A stretch of 64,000 nt of DNA from Defluviitaleaceae bacterium (GTDB taxonomy: Bacteria > Bacillota > Clostridia > Lachnospirales > WQUN01): assembly GCA_009781755.1 (NCBI GenBank), contig WQVD01000011.1, positions 1 through 64,000 of the forward strand, in the 5' to 3' direction. A program made the position numbers and the translations under genes. Positions 17,392-50,012 of this stretch are shown in pieces. A model generated the notes under the pieces. The model saw only the letters and a program-made list of their open reading frames with translations. It did no database searches and was not told the DNA's origin. Within the stretch, counting starts at the first letter, position 1; each line of letters starts with the position of its first letter.

Positions 17392-17421
17392 GTATAAATT
17401 TCCCGTTTACATCCCATACTA
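17392..17421 (+). promoter_or_regulatory. Sigma-F/sigma-G-type (forespore) promoter
   Basis: GTATA (17392-17396), a 15-base spacer, then TCCCATACTA (17412-17421) fit the forespore consensus GYATA-N15-GGNNANAMTR in the -35 and ATACTA parts; the GG is absent. It stands ~40 bases upstream of the SASP-like gene. Confidence 0.6.
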
Positions 17422-17462
17422 AAATCATCGCATCATACTTACCGCGAAGGGAGGTCATGGGA

Positions 17463-41927: not shown

Positions 41928-42031
41928 AGAAATCCCGCGGTTTTCATTAAAATGCTTGCAATGTAGCCGAAATTATGTTAATAAATTGTAACTTAACGGT
42001 TATATGCCGTAATACGCCTTTGGGGGAAGAA

Positions 42032-43213
42032 ATGATTGATATAGATGTCATGCACGATTTGAAAGCAAAAATTAAAGTAATTGGCGTAGGCGGCGGCGGC
42101 AACAACGCCGTAGATCGTATGGTTGAAGAAAAAATCAGCAATATCGAATTTATATCTGCCAATACGGATAGCATGGCGTTGGCGCGTTCCAAGGCCTCTG
42201 TGCGTATCCAATTGGGCGAGAAATTAACGCGCGGTTTGGGTGCGGGCAGCAAGCCCGAAGTCGGCCGCCGCGCCGCGGAAGAAACCCGCGACGTTATTGG
42301 ACAAGCCATTGAAGGCACCAACCTGTTGTTCATCACCGCCGGTATGGGCGGGGGTACGGGCACGGGTGCGGCGCCTGTTATCGCGTCTATCGCGCGGGAT
42401 ATGGGTATCTTGACCGTGGGCGTTGTGACCAAGCCCTTTGCCTTTGAAGGCGCGCCGCGTATGCGCAAGGCCATGGCAGGCATTGAAGAATTGCGCAAAT
42501 GCGTGGACACGTTGGTGGTTATCCCTAACCAACGTTTGCTAGATATCATTGCAGACGACACTTCCTTTATTGATGCTTTTCGTGTAGCGGACGAAGTGCT
42601 GCACCAAGGCGTAAAGGGCATCAGCGGATTAATTTTGGATGATGGCCTCATTAACTTGGACTTTGCAGATGTAGAAACCATCATGCAAGGCCAAGGGCAC
42701 ATTGCACATATGGGCGTGGGCACAGGCAGCGGCAAGAATAAAATCATGGACGCCGCCGATGCCGCCATCAACTCACCCCTGTTGGAAACAAGCATCCACG
42801 GCGCTAAAGCACTGCTCATCAGCTTTGCAGGCGGCTTGGGTCTGACTTTGAAGGATGTAAACGCAGCGGCAGAGTACATCGGCATCAATATTGACCCGGA
42901 TGCTGAAGTCATCGTAGGCGCCAATATAAATGAAGCGTTGAACGACACCGTAAACGTAACGGTCGTTGCCACTGGGTTAAATGAATCATCTACGGCGTCA
43001 CGCATCCGCCCAATAGCCAAGCCGTTAGCTCCCATCATCGGCGATGAAGAACCCCCCAAAGCCGAAGCTGAAACTGTCGAAGATGACGGCGTCACCAAAG
43101 AAATCCCCCGCGAAGGCTTAAAGCCCATCCGCGAAACGAATCAAAAAGACACCGATTCCCCCTTCGAAATCCCCATCTTCTTGCAACGCCGCAAACCTTC
43201 CGACAAAAAATAA
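42032..43213 (+). CDS. ftsZ: Cell division GTPase FtsZ
   Basis: A 393-residue tubulin homologue forming the Z-ring. It has '[17 protein letters not shown]', the GTP signature '[19 protein letters not shown]' at ~103-121, and the T7-loop '[15 protein letters not shown]' with the catalytic Asp residues. A variable acidic linker precedes the conserved tail '[12 protein letters not shown]', which binds FtsA/SepF-type partners. ATG 42032 follows GGGGGAAG; an upstream in-frame ATG at 41975 lacks a ribosome site and would add residues unlike FtsZ. Confidence 0.98.
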
Positions 43214-43239
43214 CACCCACGCATAATTAATCAAAAAAC

Positions 43240-43285
43240 AGTCCACCCTAAGCGCATCAATCATGCACTAGGGAGGACTTTTTTT
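43240..43285 (+). terminator. Terminator hairpin overlapping the dacF ribosome binding site
   Basis: AGTCCACCCTA (43240-43250) pairs with TAGGGAGGACT (43269-43279), with one A·A mismatch. An inner GCAT/ATGC stem and a run of seven or eight T follow, ending directly at the ATG (43286). The Shine-Dalgarno AGGGAGG (43270-43276) is the 3' arm itself, so the hairpin would both terminate transcription and hide the ribosome site. Confidence 0.8.
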
Positions 43286-44527
43286 ATGGAACGCGGATAT
43301 GATGGATTATGTACAAGATTTACACGAGCGGCATTGTTGTTTATGGTTTTGCTGTTGACCTTGCTGGCCTTGTCCATTGCAATATCGGTGGCAGCGCCGG
43401 GGGTTGCTTTGCAAGCGAAGGCCGAAAGCCCGCGCGTGGATGCAAGGGCATCGCTTCTGATGGAAGCAGAAACGGGGCGCATTCTGCAAGAAGACAACGC
43501 GCATGAGAAACTCGCCCCTGCTAGCGTCACCAAGATTATGACCATGCTGCTCATCTATGAAGCGCTGGATCAAGAGCGCATCAAGTGGGATGACACCGTG
43601 ACCATCAGCGCATATGCGGCGTCTATGGGCGGCTCGCAGATTTTTCTCGAAGCCGATCAAAAGCAAAATGTGCGCGATTTGACCAAAGCTATTGTCATCG
43701 CATCGGCCAATGACGCGGCTGTGGCCATGGCGGAATTCATCGCAGGTAGCGAGGATGCCTTCGTGACGCAAATGAACAAAAAAGCCGCCGAGCTGGGTAT
43801 GACCAACACCACTTTCAAAAACGCTTGCGGTTTGGATGCCGACGGCCACTTAACCACCGCATACGACATCGCCCTCATGACGCGTGAGCTCATCCTCAAA
43901 TACCCCGACGTAATCGAATATGCCACCACACGTTTAGACTCCGTCACCCACAGCACCAAGCGCGGCGATGAAGAATTCGGCCTGACCAATACCAACCGCT
44001 TGTTGACCCGCTATCAGGGTATCACCGGCATGAAAACAGGTTCCACCGGTTTGGCAAAGTATTGCATTTCTGCCACCGCCAAAAAAGAGGGCATGCATCT
44101 CATAGCCGTCATTCTGGCTGCGCCCGACCCAACCATACGCTTTGACAATGCCGTCAAACTCCTGGACTACGGCTACGCCAACTACGCCCTCATCGCCAAG
44201 GAAGAATCCGGCACACCCATGGGTGAGGTCGCCATCTCCAAAGGCAAGCTAGAATCCGTGCCCGTGGTCATCAAGGAACAAACCAACGTGCTGGCACCCA
44301 AAGGCAAACACATTGTAGTAGACGGTGAAGTGCAAATATCCGAAGAAGGCCTAACCGCACCCGTACAAGCCGGAACACCGGCAGGCATCGTCATCTACAC
44401 CCACGAAGGCGAAGAAGTAGGCCGCAGCGAACTCATCGTAGCCGAAGACATCGCCAAGGCCGAATTGGGGGATGTCTTGAATAGGATGTTCGCGCGGTGG
44501 TTGTTTGTGGAAGTGGCAAAGGAGTAA
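43286..44527 (+). CDS. dacF: D-alanyl-D-alanine carboxypeptidase (DacF/PBP5 type)
   Basis: A 413-residue low-molecular-weight penicillin-binding protein (peptidase S11) trimming pentapeptides in the wall. It has an N-terminal signal/anchor (~15-40), catalytic 'APASVTKIM' (SxxK), 'IASANDAAVAM' (SxN) and 'GMKTGSTG' (KTG). A C-terminal PBP5-like beta domain follows ('GKLESVPVVIKEQTNVL'). Only ~70 bases separate it from ftsZ. ATG 43286 is nine bases after AGGGAGG, which is buried in a terminator stem. The DacF name is by similarity; DacF in Bacillus is sporulation-linked. Confidence 0.92.
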   Translation: MERGYDGLCTRFTRAALLFMVLLLTLLALSIAISVAAPGVALQAKAESPRVDARASLLMEAETGRILQEDNAHEKLAPASVTKIMTMLLIYEALDQERIKWDDTVTISAYAASMGGSQIFLEADQKQNVRDLTKAIVIASANDAAVAMAEFIAGSEDAFVTQMNKKAAELGMTNTTFKNACGLDADGHLTTAYDIALMTRELILKYPDVIEYATTRLDSVTHSTKRGDEEFGLTNTNRLLTRYQGITGMKTGSTGLAKYCISATAKKEGMHLIAVILAAPDPTIRFDNAVKLLDYGYANYALIAKEESGTPMGEVAISKGKLESVPVVIKEQTNVLAPKGKHIVVDGEVQISEEGLTAPVQAGTPAGIVIYTHEGEEVGRSELIVAEDIAKAELGDVLNRMFARWLFVEVAKE

Positions 44528-44802: not shown

Positions 44803-47800
44803 CTAGCGTATCGTAATCGTCGCACCCTCGCCAACCGTCATATACCCCGGTGCGTCCATATTCTGCACAACTACGCCCTCGGCGCGGAAAGTACCCGCAT
44901 TCACAACACGCGCATAATAGTAGTAAACGCGTGTCGGGTTGGGGTCGCGGCGGTGCCCGCTGTTCCAATCGAAGAATTGCACGCGTTGGCCTTCGGCGGT
45001 GGCCCAGCGGAAAACACCCGGCGTGGTGGCGTGGTTGCCGAAGCGTGCGGAGCGGGGAGCATGCACGAGTCCGGCGGGCAAGAAGTCGGTAATAATGTAG
45101 GAACCCGTGAGTGCGGTGCGGGAGTAATCGATGGTGATTTGTACACGAATCAAGTCGCCTTGGTCGAAGGTGGTGCGTGGCGTAGTTTCGCCCGCGCGGA
45201 AGAATTGGCGGTTGATGGTAACGCCCGTATCGGAGGTTTCGATTTCTTCCATCGGCACGCGATGGGTGGAAATTGCGCCCACTTCGCCTGTGATGGCAAT
45301 GATTTCAAATTCGTGTAGGTTTTGTGTGGGGATGCGCAGGGTGAAGCGGTTCCAACCCGACAAATCGCGGGTGATTTCTTCGCCAAAGAGGGTGTAGGTG
45401 ACGGAAGCGGCTTGGTCATTGAGGCGGGTAATTTCGTGGGCGATGAAAGCGAGTTGGTTGACTTGCACGACGAGGTCGTCAGTATGGGCGCGGGCAGTGT
45501 AGGTGTGCAGCCCCGTGCGTTCGGGCATGTTTAACTTGGCTGCCAGCAGCGCGGCGTAAGAAGTGCGCTGCAAGATTACATGGCGGAAATCGCCGTCAAC
45601 GCGGTAGAAGGGAGCGATGGGGATGATGTGCGGCGCTACATGCGCGGCATACAATTCCCGCGCGGTGCTGGTGTCACCCAACGCGGCGTAGGCCAAGGCC
45701 AAGTATACCGCGTCTTCGAAGGATAAATTTTGCGCCTGTGCGAAGGCGTGCAAGTGCAGTAACACCGGCTCGCCCAGCAGCGCAAGGCCATATAGGGCGC
45801 GTGGGGTGTGTTGCGCAGTGTCTTCTAATGCGGCGTATAGGAAATTGCGCAGCGCGGGTTGGTTCACGTCGTCCATCACGAAGGGCATCAAGCGTACCGT
45901 CAGCGCCAAATCGCCGGATGCGTAGGGCAACATGGATAGGCTGCCGTCGGGGCGCTGGTAATCAAGCGGGTTGAAATTGTCGGGTTTTGCGAATGTCAGC
46001 ACCTCGGGGAAAAATTCTTGCAACATACGATTCGCCTCGCGCCGCATGACGAGCAATTCCAACCGCGCGCCGTGTGGGTGCCGAACAGATAGGAGCGAAT
46101 TCAAGAAGCGACCGCGCCCCAAATCCGTGAAAGTGATATTCGTCAATCCCGGCCCACCGGGAGCAAATTGCGTGCCCTCCGTCACTTCATAAAACACAGA
46201 AATATCAAGCAACCGATGCGAATCTATCACATCAAAACGGTGCCGCACGATGTCGGTCAAGCCGTTTTCGCAAGTGGCGGAAATGAGAATGGAAAAACTG
46301 CCTTCCTGCGTCATTTCCCACAATGGGATATCCACGCGGCCAAAGGCGTAACCCTCGGCTTGGATGGGGGCGTTTTGCGTGGCGGTTGCGCCGTTGGTGT
46401 ATGCGCCGTCGGCCCATACAGTATAGGTGACGCGCGTACCTGCTTGCAATGCGGTGCCAAAAGCGTTCACGCTAAGCACGGGTACGTCGCCCGTCAAGAA
46501 AATTTCGTTGAGCGTGTAATGCACAAACAGCGGATGGGTGACGATGAGGTTGGACGTGGCGTTGCCCGCGTATAAATCATCGGTGATGCCCGACGCGGTC
46601 AGCCGCCACGACGTAATATTGTCCGGCACGCGGAAAGTGACCGTGGCCACGCCCTGTGCATTGGTACGCGCAGAGAAGAACAAAGCCGTGTCTTCAAAGA
46701 TTTCGCGGATGTGAGCGTTGGCCGCACCGCCACTGTCCGCAGCGGCTTCGGGCGCTGCCGCAAGTGCCATATCCATTTGTTCGGTTACCATGCCGTAACG
46801 CGCTGTATCCCGTGCGCCGCCGCCATGTAAAACGTATTCATGCCCGTCGGATTGAAAAGTGCCATGCGTAGCCAATCGGTGCCGCACGCCGGAGGGGATA
46901 TCGCGGTATAGTTGTGTCAATGTGCGCGGGTCATAATCAACCAGCGCGAACAGCGCCTCATCCACGGCGGCTAGGTTTACATGCGTTTGTACCGCGCGGC
47001 CGCTGGGGTCGGTGACGCGCACAGTTACGGTCGCGGTGTCGCCGGGGCGATAGCTGTCTTGACAAGCGGTAATTTCAAAATTCAACTGCCGACTTTGGTG
47101 GTTGAAGCGCAGCGTTTCTTGCATATGCCAACCGCTACGGTACACATGTCCGTCAAAAAATACGGCATACACGGTAGCGTTGGGCAGATGTTCTTCACTG
47201 AACGTGAATGCCAGCAGGTTCATACCCACGTGGTATTCCACAATGCCGCCCGATGCGACCACGAACAGGAAATTGCCGCGTTCGAGCCGCTCTGTGCCTG
47301 CCATGATGGTCAAATGCACTTCATCGCCGATGTCGTAACCTTCATCCCATTCGCGGCTGCTGTACAAGAAGGGTTCGCCACTTTCTGTACGCCACCAAAA
47401 GTTTTGCCAGTCGCGGCCAATAAATCGATTGTGCTGAATGGTGCGTCGGTTGCCGTCCGTGGTGCTTACACGGGCAAAGTAACTCTCGCCTTCGCGGTCG
47501 GGTACGGTAAAGTCACGCGCAGCTTCGCCTTGTGCATCGGTGTGTAGCGTAAAGCGTTCGATGACTTCCTCGCGGCGGTCATTGCGATAGCGCGGTACCA
47601 CCATGCGATTGATCCAGCAATAGCGCTCGCCAATGCGGGTCGCTACCCAATACACGCGCACGATTTCTACATTCAATTCCTGCCCCACCAACGGTGCGCA
47701 CAAGAAATCACTGCCATGCGCTGCCGTGCCATCATTCAAGCGATCCAACGTGATGGTATGCGCAGAAATTTGCAAATTAGCATCGGTGCCGTCGCGGGTG

Positions 47801-49938
47801 GCGCGCACCTGTACGTCGATGTCGTTGATAAACACTTGCACGTTGTGGCTGCGCCACGTAGGGCCGATTTCGGGCAGGGTTGCATCCAGGTGGAAATTGA
47901 GATTGCCCCGGCCTTGTGCGTTCGCGGGTGCGGTGAAGGAGCCGAGGGTCATGGTTGCTTCACCGTCGTGGTCGGTAGTGGCGTGTCCTACGCGGTGTGG
48001 CACCGTCATAGGCCAGCCCCGCGCGTTGTACGACAGCGCCAAGTCAGGCACAGGCGTGCCTTCAAAAAACGCCGAACGCACTGTAAATTCCACTGTCTCC
48101 CACATAAACATAGCGCGGCGGTCGGCGGAAATCTGTATGTCATACGGTGGCTTTACAAAGTCCTGCACGTCAAAGTTGACCGTATTCAAAACAATGTCGC
48201 CGTGATAAATCGTCAACACATAACTACCCGGATCAAGGTGTGGCAAGCGGATGCTGCCGTCATAACTGCCGCGTTGTACGGGCACCGTTTGGCGGTGCAA
48301 GGTATCACTCTCGCCCCACATGCCGCCCGCACGTCCCCAATGCCAGCCCTCCGTCAGCACTGCCGTTACATAAGAAATATCTTCCCGTACATTGCGGTTC
48401 TGCACAAATCCCCAAAAGTTAACCGTGTCGTTGCGTTGAAAAAGCGTGCGGTCAAGTTGCAATGCCGACCAATACGCCGCACTGGGCTGCGCAAAGCCCC
48501 ATCCCCAAAATCCGCGGAAAAAATGCTGCGGCTGCACATGCCGCGCATAGAAAATTACCAAGCGCTTGCCGTCGGGTGTTTCAATGACCAATCGATCCGT
48601 CGGGTCGGTAAACCCGCCCGCCAATACCGCGATGCCGTCGGCGTTGGTTTGCCCGGTACGTGCAGCATCTAGTAGCGTAGCGTTTTGTACCGCACCCCCG
48701 CTAATCATGTCATTCACCCAAACCAAGGTCTGGTTGTCATCAGCAAATATCTGCACCACCAAATCTGTAATTTGTATCAACATCTGGTCGCTAACGTCGC
48801 CCCCAATAGAGGCATTAATCAAGTAGAAACCCGGCGGCAACGCGTCGGGCAAAACAAGCGTCTCTTGCCAGCCCCATTCATCCACATTTTGTGGTGTAGA
48901 GAAATTCATCCGCGCCACCCGCGTCAAGCCCGCAGTGTCAATATGATGATTGCGCCATGCATGCCAAGCCCAACGCGGCGTATCAAACAACCGCGTCACT
49001 TCACGCGCTGCGTCCTCCGTGTCACCAAAACGGAACACTTCAATATCAACCCGCGGCCGCGTACCGCGATGTGGATAATTCAAACGAAACCGCACCGCAG
49101 GCGGCTCAAAGCTAGGCAGCTCCGTATACACAACATTAAAGTGAAAACTCGTATCCGCCCCAAACACATCCGCATCCGCAGCCGTTTCAAACGCAAAAAC
49201 CACATCCGCATCAATCCGCGCCGCCGTGCCGTCCAATCCCAGCCCCGCCGCTAACGTAACCGTATAAATGCGCCCCGCTTCCAAAGGCTCCGTAGGCATA
49301 AACACCGTCACAGCGCCCCGTTGCACAAACCGCCCCTCCACCGCAGGCTCAATAAAAAAAAACGGGCGCACGTCGCCATGCCCCGCCAAAGAAAAATGTA
49401 ACTCAATACCCGTGTCCACAGGCACATTCACCGACTCATGCGCAGGTAAAACACCCATCAACGCAAAATTCGGCACCGTCTGAAAAGTCCAAGTAATATC
49501 GTCCGCATCCTCAAATGCCAAGCGGAACGTATACACCGCATTAAACGACAACGGCACTTCGGGCGTAACCAACACCGTAGCGTTCCCCTGCGGCTCCAAC
49601 AAAGGCGCAGGCAACCCATCAATCGTAACACGCAACGGATTGGTAAGCGTAGGCGACCCCATAATCGATGGCGGTATGGTGAGCAAAAACGCACTCTCCA
49701 CACAAACGCCCGCATCCCCCAAAGCCTGCGGCACCAACGTAAATCCATTCCTAGGCTCACTCAAAGCCTCCTGCCACCCCAGCGGCATCATCAACGGCCC
49801 CGCCACCGGGTCAATATCCAATTCCATCTGCGTCATATCCAAAGGCGGGTATAAAACAACCTCTCCATCGCCCAGTCGTCCGCACCCCATCAATACAAAA
49901 AATAATGCAACAAACATCAATGCAAATAATTTTTTCAT
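44803..49938 (-). CDS. Alpha-2-macroglobulin-like lipoprotein without thioester
   Basis: A 1711-residue lipoprotein. ATG 49938 follows AAGGGAG; the signal ends in lipobox VLMGC at about Cys19. An N-terminal Big_5-like domain ('ESVNVPVDTGIELHFSLAG') precedes a chain of macroglobulin domains. The MG/A2M core is at ~1080-1200 ('RTNAQGVATVTFRVPDNITSWRLTASGI'). A bait-like Ala/Gly-rich stretch lies just before it ('DMALAAAPEAAADSGGAANA'). Where the thioester CxEQ is expected, the sequence reads 'HPHGARLELLVMRRE' (~1290), so the thioester is lost. Bacterial homologues trap proteases at the envelope; here trapping would be non-covalent. No pbpC neighbour is seen. Confidence 0.9.
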   Translation of the reverse strand: MKKLFALMFVALFFVLMGCGRLGDGEVVLYPPLDMTQMELDIDPVAGPLMMPLGWQEALSEPRNGFTLVPQALGDAGVCVESAFLLTIPPSIMGSPTLTNPLRVTIDGLPAPLLEPQGNATVLVTPEVPLSFNAVYTFRLAFEDADDITWTFQTVPNFALMGVLPAHESVNVPVDTGIELHFSLAGHGDVRPFFFIEPAVEGRFVQRGAVTVFMPTEPLEAGRIYTVTLAAGLGLDGTAARIDADVVFAFETAADADVFGADTSFHFNVVYTELPSFEPPAVRFRLNYPHRGTRPRVDIEVFRFGDTEDAAREVTRLFDTPRWAWHAWRNHHIDTAGLTRVARMNFSTPQNVDEWGWQETLVLPDALPPGFYLINASIGGDVSDQMLIQITDLVVQIFADDNQTLVWVNDMISGGAVQNATLLDAARTGQTNADGIAVLAGGFTDPTDRLVIETPDGKRLVIFYARHVQPQHFFRGFWGWGFAQPSAAYWSALQLDRTLFQRNDTVNFWGFVQNRNVREDISYVTAVLTEGWHWGRAGGMWGESDTLHRQTVPVQRGSYDGSIRLPHLDPGSYVLTIYHGDIVLNTVNFDVQDFVKPPYDIQISADRRAMFMWETVEFTVRSAFFEGTPVPDLALSYNARGWPMTVPHRVGHATTDHDGEATMTLGSFTAPANAQGRGNLNFHLDATLPEIGPTWRSHNVQVFINDIDVQVRATRDGTDANLQISAHTITLDRLNDGTAAHGSDFLCAPLVGQELNVEIVRVYWVATRIGERYCWINRMVVPRYRNDRREEVIERFTLHTDAQGEAARDFTVPDREGESYFARVSTTDGNRRTIQHNRFIGRDWQNFWWRTESGEPFLYSSREWDEGYDIGDEVHLTIMAGTERLERGNFLFVVASGGIVEYHVGMNLLAFTFSEEHLPNATVYAVFFDGHVYRSGWHMQETLRFNHQSRQLNFEITACQDSYRPGDTATVTVRVTDPSGRAVQTHVNLAAVDEALFALVDYDPRTLTQLYRDIPSGVRHRLATHGTFQSDGHEYVLHGGGARDTARYGMVTEQMDMALAAAPEAAADSGGAANAHIREIFEDTALFFSARTNAQGVATVTFRVPDNITSWRLTASGITDDLYAGNATSNLIVTHPLFVHYTLNEIFLTGDVPVLSVNAFGTALQAGTRVTYTVWADGAYTNGATATQNAPIQAEGYAFGRVDIPLWEMTQEGSFSILISATCENGLTDIVRHRFDVIDSHRLLDISVFYEVTEGTQFAPGGPGLTNITFTDLGRGRFLNSLLSVRHPHGARLELLVMRREANRMLQEFFPEVLTFAKPDNFNPLDYQRPDGSLSMLPYASGDLALTVRLMPFVMDDVNQPALRNFLYAALEDTAQHTPRALYGLALLGEPVLLHLHAFAQAQNLSFEDAVYLALAYAALGDTSTARELYAAHVAPHIIPIAPFYRVDGDFRHVILQRTSYAALLAAKLNMPERTGLHTYTARAHTDDLVVQVNQLAFIAHEITRLNDQAASVTYTLFGEEITRDLSGWNRFTLRIPTQNLHEFEIIAITGEVGAISTHRVPMEEIETSDTGVTINRQFFRAGETTPRTTFDQGDLIRVQITIDYSRTALTGSYIITDFLPAGLVHAPRSARFGNHATTPGVFRWATAEGQRVQFFDWNSGHRRDPNPTRVYYYYARVVNAGTFRAEGVVVQNMDAPGYMTVGEGATITIR

Positions 49939-49959
49939 AAGGCATCTCCCTTGTACATG

Positions 49960-50012
49960 TGGTATGTATACCAACTATAACGGAATTATATAGGAAGCGT
50001 TCCATGTGTTAA
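49960..50012 (-). promoter_or_regulatory. Promoter and palindrome of the macroglobulin gene
   Basis: On the minus strand: TTAACA (50012 to 50007), 16 bases, TATAAT (49990 to 49985). Just downstream, around the expected start site, lies the palindrome TGGTATGTATACCA (49960-49973), a plausible repressor site. Confidence 0.6.

Follow-up and report, generated by a model that had tools for sequence, protein, structure and literature searches.

In B. subtilis, a large hairpin has been proposed to block translation of sigG from the RNA that reads through from spoIIGA-sigE, and according to the available text of the same paper this hairpin cannot form in RNA that starts at sigG's own promoter (PMC5942855). 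In the case of T4, the Shine-Dalgarno sequences (SD) of gene e, soc, gene 49 and I-TevI are found in hairpins of the long early RNA, and for gene e it is described, in the part of the paper that was available, that the late promoters are situated where the 5' strand of the hairpin is encoded and that the late RNA, which lacks this strand, is translated (PMC3014915). Expression platforms of riboswitches are related in their output, as they terminate transcription or hide the SD (as summarized in the available text of PMC11625349).

The locus described here, which is the gap between ftsZ and dacF, shares aspects with all these systems. Like B. subtilis sigG, as far as this is described in the text cited above, dacF appears to be a sporulation gene that follows another transcribed gene and has a hairpin that would form only in read-through RNA, but here it is dacF behind ftsZ, the -10-like element itself serves as anti-SD, there is a putative U-run terminator, and the arrangement depends on gene orientation across families. 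With T4 gene e the element has in common that the SD lies in a hairpin of the longer RNA, and its candidate promoter would likewise lie in the region of the 5' strand, but it would distinguish vegetative from sporulation RNA and not early from late RNA, and it has a U-run terminator, which the available text on the T4 leaders (PMC3014915) does not mention. Terminator hairpin and SD burial are also the outputs of riboswitch platforms, as far as the cited text covers them, but unlike these the dacF element has no aptamer or ligand, and the position of the RNA start would decide. Intrinsic terminators likewise have a G+C-rich stem followed by a U-run, but in the dacF element the 3' arm is the SD, the start codon adjoins, and some relatives have the arms but no U-run. 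The principle is already known from T4 gene e and B. subtilis sigG; what appears to be new is dacF as a member, the -10 element as the anti-SD, the added terminator, the dependence on orientation, and the spread over sigma-E, sigma-F and sigma-G genes. In searches of the open-licence literature, the design was found described neither for dacF or spoIIR nor as a general feature, and they yielded no description of several sporulation genes using it in dependence on orientation.

Spore genes are often located downstream of genes for growth, and if termination leaked, spore products would be made when they are not wanted. A promoter that turns into a translational lock of its own gene when it is transcribed through would be a compact answer to this, and such a lock may be a common means of keeping spore genes off outside sporulation. 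It is likely, with a probability of roughly 0.8, that the dacF element is a sporulation promoter folded into an RNA lock against read-through, to which a terminator has been added in many members.

Hairpin and promoter-like elements between ftsZ and dacF

The following features are relevant, with positions in the window, i.e. the whole analysed stretch of 64,000 nucleotides:

41975 to 43213, + strand: ftsZ, upstream of dacF and codirectional (TIGR00065, 398 bits), with its stop about 20 nt 5' of the stem
43221 to 43225, + strand: GCATA, -35-like element of a candidate sigma-G-type promoter (GHATA in 34 of 34 leaders with the element)
43233 to 43250, + strand: 5' arm of the hairpin, with an A-run, AGTCC, an A.A mismatch and CCCTA (from fold and alignment)
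43244 to 43250, + strand: CACCCTA, -10-like element and anti-SD core of the 5' arm, paired in the stem with the strand that carries the SD (CA[ACT][CT]CTA in 34 leaders)
43251 to 43268, + strand: loop with a small inner hairpin, inside which the transcription start is predicted from the spacing to the -10 element
43269 to 43285, + strand: 3' arm of the hairpin, TAGGGAGGAC, and TTTTTTT; the hairpin of both arms resembles an intrinsic terminator
43270 to 43276, + strand: AGGGAGG, the SD of dacF within the 3' arm (from the sequence)
43286 to 44527, + strand: dacF-type D-Ala-D-Ala carboxypeptidase (Peptidase_S11, PF00768, 266 bits, and PBP5_C, PF07943)

The gap between the ftsZ stop codon (TAA, 43211-43213) and the dacF ATG at 43286 comprises 72 bases, in which AAAAAA-C-AGTCC-A-CCCTA (43233-43250) faces TAGGG-A-GGAC-TTTTTTT (43269-43285), and the seven Ts (43279-43285) directly adjoin the ATG. 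Judged from its predicted fold and its recurrence, the hairpin at the dacF start is real, conserved and interpretable. The fold of positions 43220-43320 reaches -28.5 kcal/mol, compared to -15.4 +/- 2.7 for shuffled sequences (z -4.85; 0 of 200 as good), and in this fold of the long RNA the SD of dacF belongs to the 3' arm of a stable hairpin. Opening this SD is predicted to cost 14.3 kcal/mol, more than for any other of the 40 genes that were scored in the window (mean 4.2, sd 3.1). The initial annotation of the window, which had described a hairpin with AGGGAGG in the 3' arm and a T-run ending at the ATG, is confirmed by these values, except that it had let the stem begin at 43240, which is about seven bases too late (43233). 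The hairpin is absent from the list of a terminator scan of the window, a scan that allows loops of at most 8 nucleotides, and the covariance models of Rfam gave no match near the element, a tRNA being the only hit above the gathering score in the whole window. On its other side, dacF is convergent with the gene of a large alpha-2-macroglobulin-like protein (44803-49974, - strand) that by eye has a lipoprotein-like start.

In the part of PMC3416734 that was available, the sigma-G consensus of B. subtilis is given as GNATA (-35) and CAWAMTA (-10), and dacF is found in the core sporulation list as controlled by sigma-F/sigma-G. The -35-like GCATA of the locus fits GNATA, and CACCCTA fits CAWAMTA at 5 of 7 positions only; the two bases by which it differs from CATACTA belong to the part that is paired with the SD-bearing strand of the stem. 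An SASP gene of the same genome carries GCATA-N17-CATACTA. Among the 34 dacF leaders with the element, a set that is itself defined by having the -10/-35 pattern, the core of the 5' arm always reads CA[ACT][CT]CTA, and it follows GHATA at a distance of 17 nt in 31 leaders and of 18 nt in three, with 18 nt at the locus studied here. It appears that dacF is driven by a sporulation promoter, probably of the sigma-G type and otherwise recognized by sigma-F, with the transcription start expected near 43256-43258 and thus within the loop. The pattern GHATA-N17/18-CAHNCTA by itself predicts little; it has 16 matches in the genome and 19 in the reversed control, and many of them are inside long open frames.

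The element can be envisaged to function as follows. A sporulation promoter would drive dacF, and its -10 region would be complementary to dacF's own SD. RNA that comes from a codirectional gene upstream (ftsZ at this locus) would include the -10 region as RNA, which would pair with the SD and its flanks, and the presumed read-through dacF message would be translationally silent and probably often be terminated at the U-run after the stem. RNA from the sporulation promoter, starting in the loop, would have no 5' arm and thus no stem, so that it could be translated, and dacF would thereby be insulated from vegetative transcription.

dacF leaders of related genomes

Leaders of dacF were taken from 60 relatives and from contigs of named genomes and anchored at the start codon, and 66 remained after duplicates and one leader without a start (L059) had been dropped. 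The closest named records are metagenome-assembled genomes of the 'Defluviitaleaceae bacterium' type. Their isolate codes we take to stand for termite-gut samples. The element is present in 34 distinct dacF leaders, namely in 30 of the 33 family genomes that have a dacF orthologue (37 were searched, and four were counted as being without dacF), in three genomes from other families of the order (G044, G047, G053), and in an additional named contig (L045). The hairpin, whose lack in relatives would have spoken against the initial annotation, thus recurs in relatives.

The direct upstream neighbour of dacF is ftsZ in 16 of the 34 element loci, and at the others there are unrelated genes. As the hairpin recurs before dacF also without ftsZ as neighbour, it is, judged from these leaders, an element of dacF rather than of ftsZ. 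It had been annotated as the ftsZ terminator, and it could be merely that, with an overlap with the dacF SD that results accidentally from the short intergenic gap: the G+C stem and the seven Ts are right behind ftsZ, ftsZ is directly upstream in just under half of the element loci, and the 72-nt gap shows no second terminator-like hairpin. This explanation is nevertheless unlikely, as the element is retained before dacF behind other neighbours, as 9 of 34 elements retain the arms without a run of five Ts, as ftsZ in G019 has a separate terminator-like hairpin with the dacF element following about 140 bases further on (by eye), and as a terminator would not need the -10/-35 spacing in the 5' arm. 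In 25 of the 34 elements the stem is followed by a run of at least five Ts, and since the other nine have the arms without such a run, SD occlusion seems to be more constant than termination, which would have been added to it. In the window itself the G+C stem is directly followed by the U-run, as in an intrinsic terminator, and a terminator function is probably real here.

In the 34 leaders, the mean predicted cost of SD opening is 11.4 kcal/mol in read-through RNA, 3.3 kcal/mol in promoter-born RNA and 4.3 kcal/mol with a shuffled upstream region. The cost in read-through RNA exceeds that in promoter-born RNA in every one of the 34 leaders, and the promoter-born value is insensitive to the exact start (+3 to +9 were tried, mean 3.3). 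The mean SD-unpaired probability had also been tried as a measure and was found to be blunt, because the conserved A.A mismatch sits within the SD, and the opening energy was used instead. According to the initial annotation, RNA reading through from ftsZ would either stop or present an inaccessible SD, and a start inside the loop would make the SD accessible. Both suggestions are supported: the predicted opening energies differ (11.4 versus 3.3 kcal/mol), and the conserved sigma-G-like promoter, which has its -10 element in the 5' arm, puts the predicted start into the loop. A promoter that gives unstructured leaders had been regarded there as a refuting result, but it would rather be the required half of the mechanism.

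The two arms fit each other specifically. RNAduplex gives -16.4 for own arms and -14.2 +/- 0.29 when the arms of different genomes are permuted, and -2.04 versus -0.36 +/- 0.26 for the loop-proximal part alone, each with 0 of 20000 permutations as good, and these counts do not equal probabilities because of the relatedness of the genomes. When each genus is represented by a single genome (n=18), the arm swap still results in z -6.8 (0/20000 as good). RNAalifold, applied to an alignment of 29 of the 34 leaders (the long-loop leaders L007, L019, L020, L021 and L024 were left out), finds five outer pairs, three of which have changes on both sides, whereas a column-shuffle test on the 18 closest sequences detects no covariation, the core stem being nearly invariant there. 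In the alignment of relatives that had been proposed with the initial annotation, the support for pairing thus comes from divergent members and from the loop-proximal part. Inverted symmetry and strong conservation would also characterize a DNA operator, i.e. an inverted repeat bound by a dimeric regulator, but the arm spacing differs by well over 100 nt, the arms track each other through base-pairing, and the SD itself makes up the 3' arm, which makes an operator the least credible of the explanations considered.

A conventional 5'-leader switch is very unlikely as well. In this case GHATA would be the -10 element of the housekeeping sigma factor, transcription would start before the hairpin, and a ligand, a protein or temperature would open it, and indeed GTATAAAAT-like strings are found at the -35 site of some leaders (e.g. 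L009, L018). However, the second position of GHATA is C, A or T without a bias for T, and GHATA has a fixed partner, CAnYCTA, 17-18 nt further on; Rfam gives no match; the distance from the -10 element to the start codon spans 34-206 nt in the 34 leaders, with unrelated inserts, which is unlike an aptamer; and a loss behind divergent neighbours (see below) would be unexpected. In the leaders L021, L019, L020 and L007, the loop inserts comprise tens to more than 150 nt, some with inverted repeats, and the promoter is retained.

When copies at other genes were searched with a covariance model (R1), the ten best matches (E 1.8e-8 or better) were all dacF leaders. Seven weaker matches that were inspected as candidates for further copies (L160-L163, L165, L167, L168) resemble plain terminators and were rejected, and this version of the sequence is therefore dacF-specific. 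The dacF leader L096 of genome G046 has the same design with a different sequence, AATACTCCC...GGGAGTATTTTT adjoining the ATG, and the upstream ORF is codirectional.

Orientation of the gene upstream of dacF

The proposed lock would guard against read-through and would therefore be required only if the upstream gene is on the same strand, as is ftsZ at the locus studied here, where read-through is thus possible. Of the 66 leaders, 60 were scored; three paralogues, two doubtful starts and one leader without a recognised SD were dropped. In the family, an SD opening cost of at least 8.2 kcal/mol is found in 23 of 25 codirectional and in 0 of 7 divergent leaders (Fisher p 1.1e-5; Mann-Whitney p 3.9e-5), the threshold of 8.2, the hand-made orientation classes and the setting aside of 8 unclear leaders all having been chosen after seeing the data. 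Across all families, the median is 11.7 for codirectional (n=39) and 4.3 for divergent leaders (n=13; p 5.5e-5), and the independent divergent cases, L095 included, number about five. The tree of the relatives omits L094, L100, L102 and L103, which are too short.

The three family genomes that have dacF but no element have divergent genes upstream: YqfD in G008, SpoIIID (about 500 bases off) in G010, and FIST in G015. In one clade (L020, L021, L045), dacF is opposite a divergent saccharopine dehydrogenase gene, and there the promoter is kept and the own arms pair worse than swapped ones, although SD opening in L020 and L045 still costs 8.0 and 7.6 kcal/mol. Exceptions are L031 and L093, which are weak (3.6 and 3.5 kcal/mol) though codirectional. 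This dependence on orientation makes the lock testable from genomes alone.

A switch linking division and wall trimming, as it had been considered in the initial annotation, is not supported by these data: the element is kept in many leaders without ftsZ and is weak or missing with a divergent neighbour, and it would therefore separate dacF from the transcription of its neighbour. That ftsZ transcription is meant to set the dacF output in growing cells is accordingly highly improbable. It would be in line with ftsZ being the usual dacF neighbour in the closest genomes, but the element is retained when the neighbour changes, SASP, sigG, spoIIR and spoIVA genes are present in the genome, and dacF is among the sigma-F/sigma-G controlled genes in the list that was available from PMC3416734.

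Leaders of other sporulation genes

Pairing of leaders with their own SD regions was examined also at other genes with a swap test, in which upstream segments (-110 to -24), own or permuted, were paired with the final 22 bases; only leaders that have a clear SD and at least 115 nt upstream were used. This left 29/30 leaders for SASP, 28/30 for sigG, 29/30 for groES, 22/30 for gpr, 30/30 each for rplT and spoIVA, and 28/29 for spoIIR (second copy of G005 not included). The sigma factors of spoIIR, spoIVA, gpr and SASP are named as in B. subtilis, which we presume to apply here. Own segments paired better in the dacF family set (z -8.9), in spoIVA (-9.1), spoIIR (-7.0), sigG (-4.0) and SASP (-3.5), and the test was flat at the controls groES (z +0.7) and rplT (z +0.4). 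There was no effect at gpr (z -1.2), where 19 of 22 loci are divergent. With one genome per genus throughout the order, the z values are -9.1 for spoIVA, -6.0 for spoIIR, -4.1 for sigG, -3.9 for SASP and -1.6 for gpr, and +0.2 each for groES and rplT. As further controls, mixed genes of the window were flat (z -0.5, n=39), and ftsZ leaders deviated in the opposite direction (z +2.1, n=12). The phylum-wide spoIVA set (29/30 kept) was not significant (z -1.6, n=29), and the habit therefore looks concentrated in this order.

When the upstream stretch was narrowed to -110 to -40, the effect persisted for spoIVA, spoIIR, sigG and SASP. A far-upstream control stretch (-150 to -110) gave small negative z values as well, -1.1 to -2.1, in the sporulation sets with an effect, which is why the weaker effects (sigG, SASP) may be due in part to base composition; both kinds of runs also required 160 nt upstream, which left 28 SASP and 29 rplT leaders. 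In each of spoIVA, spoIIR, sigG and SASP, the effect resides in the codirectional loci (p 0.038, 0.045, 0.043 and 0.003, without assignment to the individual genes), and the pooled split of the four gene sets, 59 versus 30 loci, results in p 6e-5, with orientations called automatically and 'none' and 'ambig' loci excluded.

Of the 28 spoIIR leaders, 16 have a recognisable sigma-F-like promoter, in most cases GTATA-N15-GGnnAnnnT. The spacer of this promoter alone pairs with its own SD better than with swapped ones (4/20000 as good), and in 15 of the 16 leaders the SD is harder to open in read-through than in promoter-born RNA. In the sigG leaders of the order, the anti-SD is likewise located in the promoter spacer, whereas the promoters of spoIVA were assigned without certainty. 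The genome of the window, which is that of an uncultured bacterium, shows the design at all five genes: the predicted opening costs in read-through and promoter-born RNA are 14.3 and 2.5 kcal/mol for dacF, 14.1 and 3.2 for spoIVA, 5.9 and 1.4 for spoIIR, 8.6 and 3.4 for sigG, and 5.6 and 1.7 for SASP. Five Ts adjoin the ATG in its spoIVA and spoIIR genes. The spoIVA leader (L366, C1:279536), which belongs to a mother-cell gene, is built almost exactly like that of dacF, with a long stem between the promoter region AATCTCCCTTC and the SD region GAAGGGAGATT and with TTTTT abutting the ATG.

There is good but indirect evidence that dacF is one case of a wider habit at spore genes. A more far-reaching idea, towards which we lean without much firmness, is that sigma-E, sigma-F and sigma-G promoters of this order, which comprises spore-forming bacteria of the gut, commonly double as anti-SD for their own gene and are selected to do so only behind a same-strand gene, which would constitute a genome-wide RNA firewall that allows stage- or cell-specific genes to be placed after vegetative ones. 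If the design is common across sporulation regulons, it would explain conserved bases in promoter 'spacers', it could be predicted from gene order where protection is needed, and constructs for leak-proof expression could be designed by the same rule.

Three further sites came to attention. In the same genome (L178, C28:36776, - strand), a GAATA-N17-CATACTA promoter precedes a DUF378 gene, and in the predicted fold its spacer pairs with the SD region, the computed opening cost being low. At L181 (C33:2630, - strand), upstream of an ORF that by eye resembles helix-turn-helix proteins, GTGCAACC and CCTCC can pair with the SD region GGAGGTTGC. In the window, at 17392-17421 (+ strand), the sigma-G-type sequence GTATA-N18-CATACTA is followed by GGGAGG and a Lys/Asn-rich ORF of 43-45 aa that starts at 17457 or 17463; it has no Pfam match and is possibly an overlooked small spore protein.
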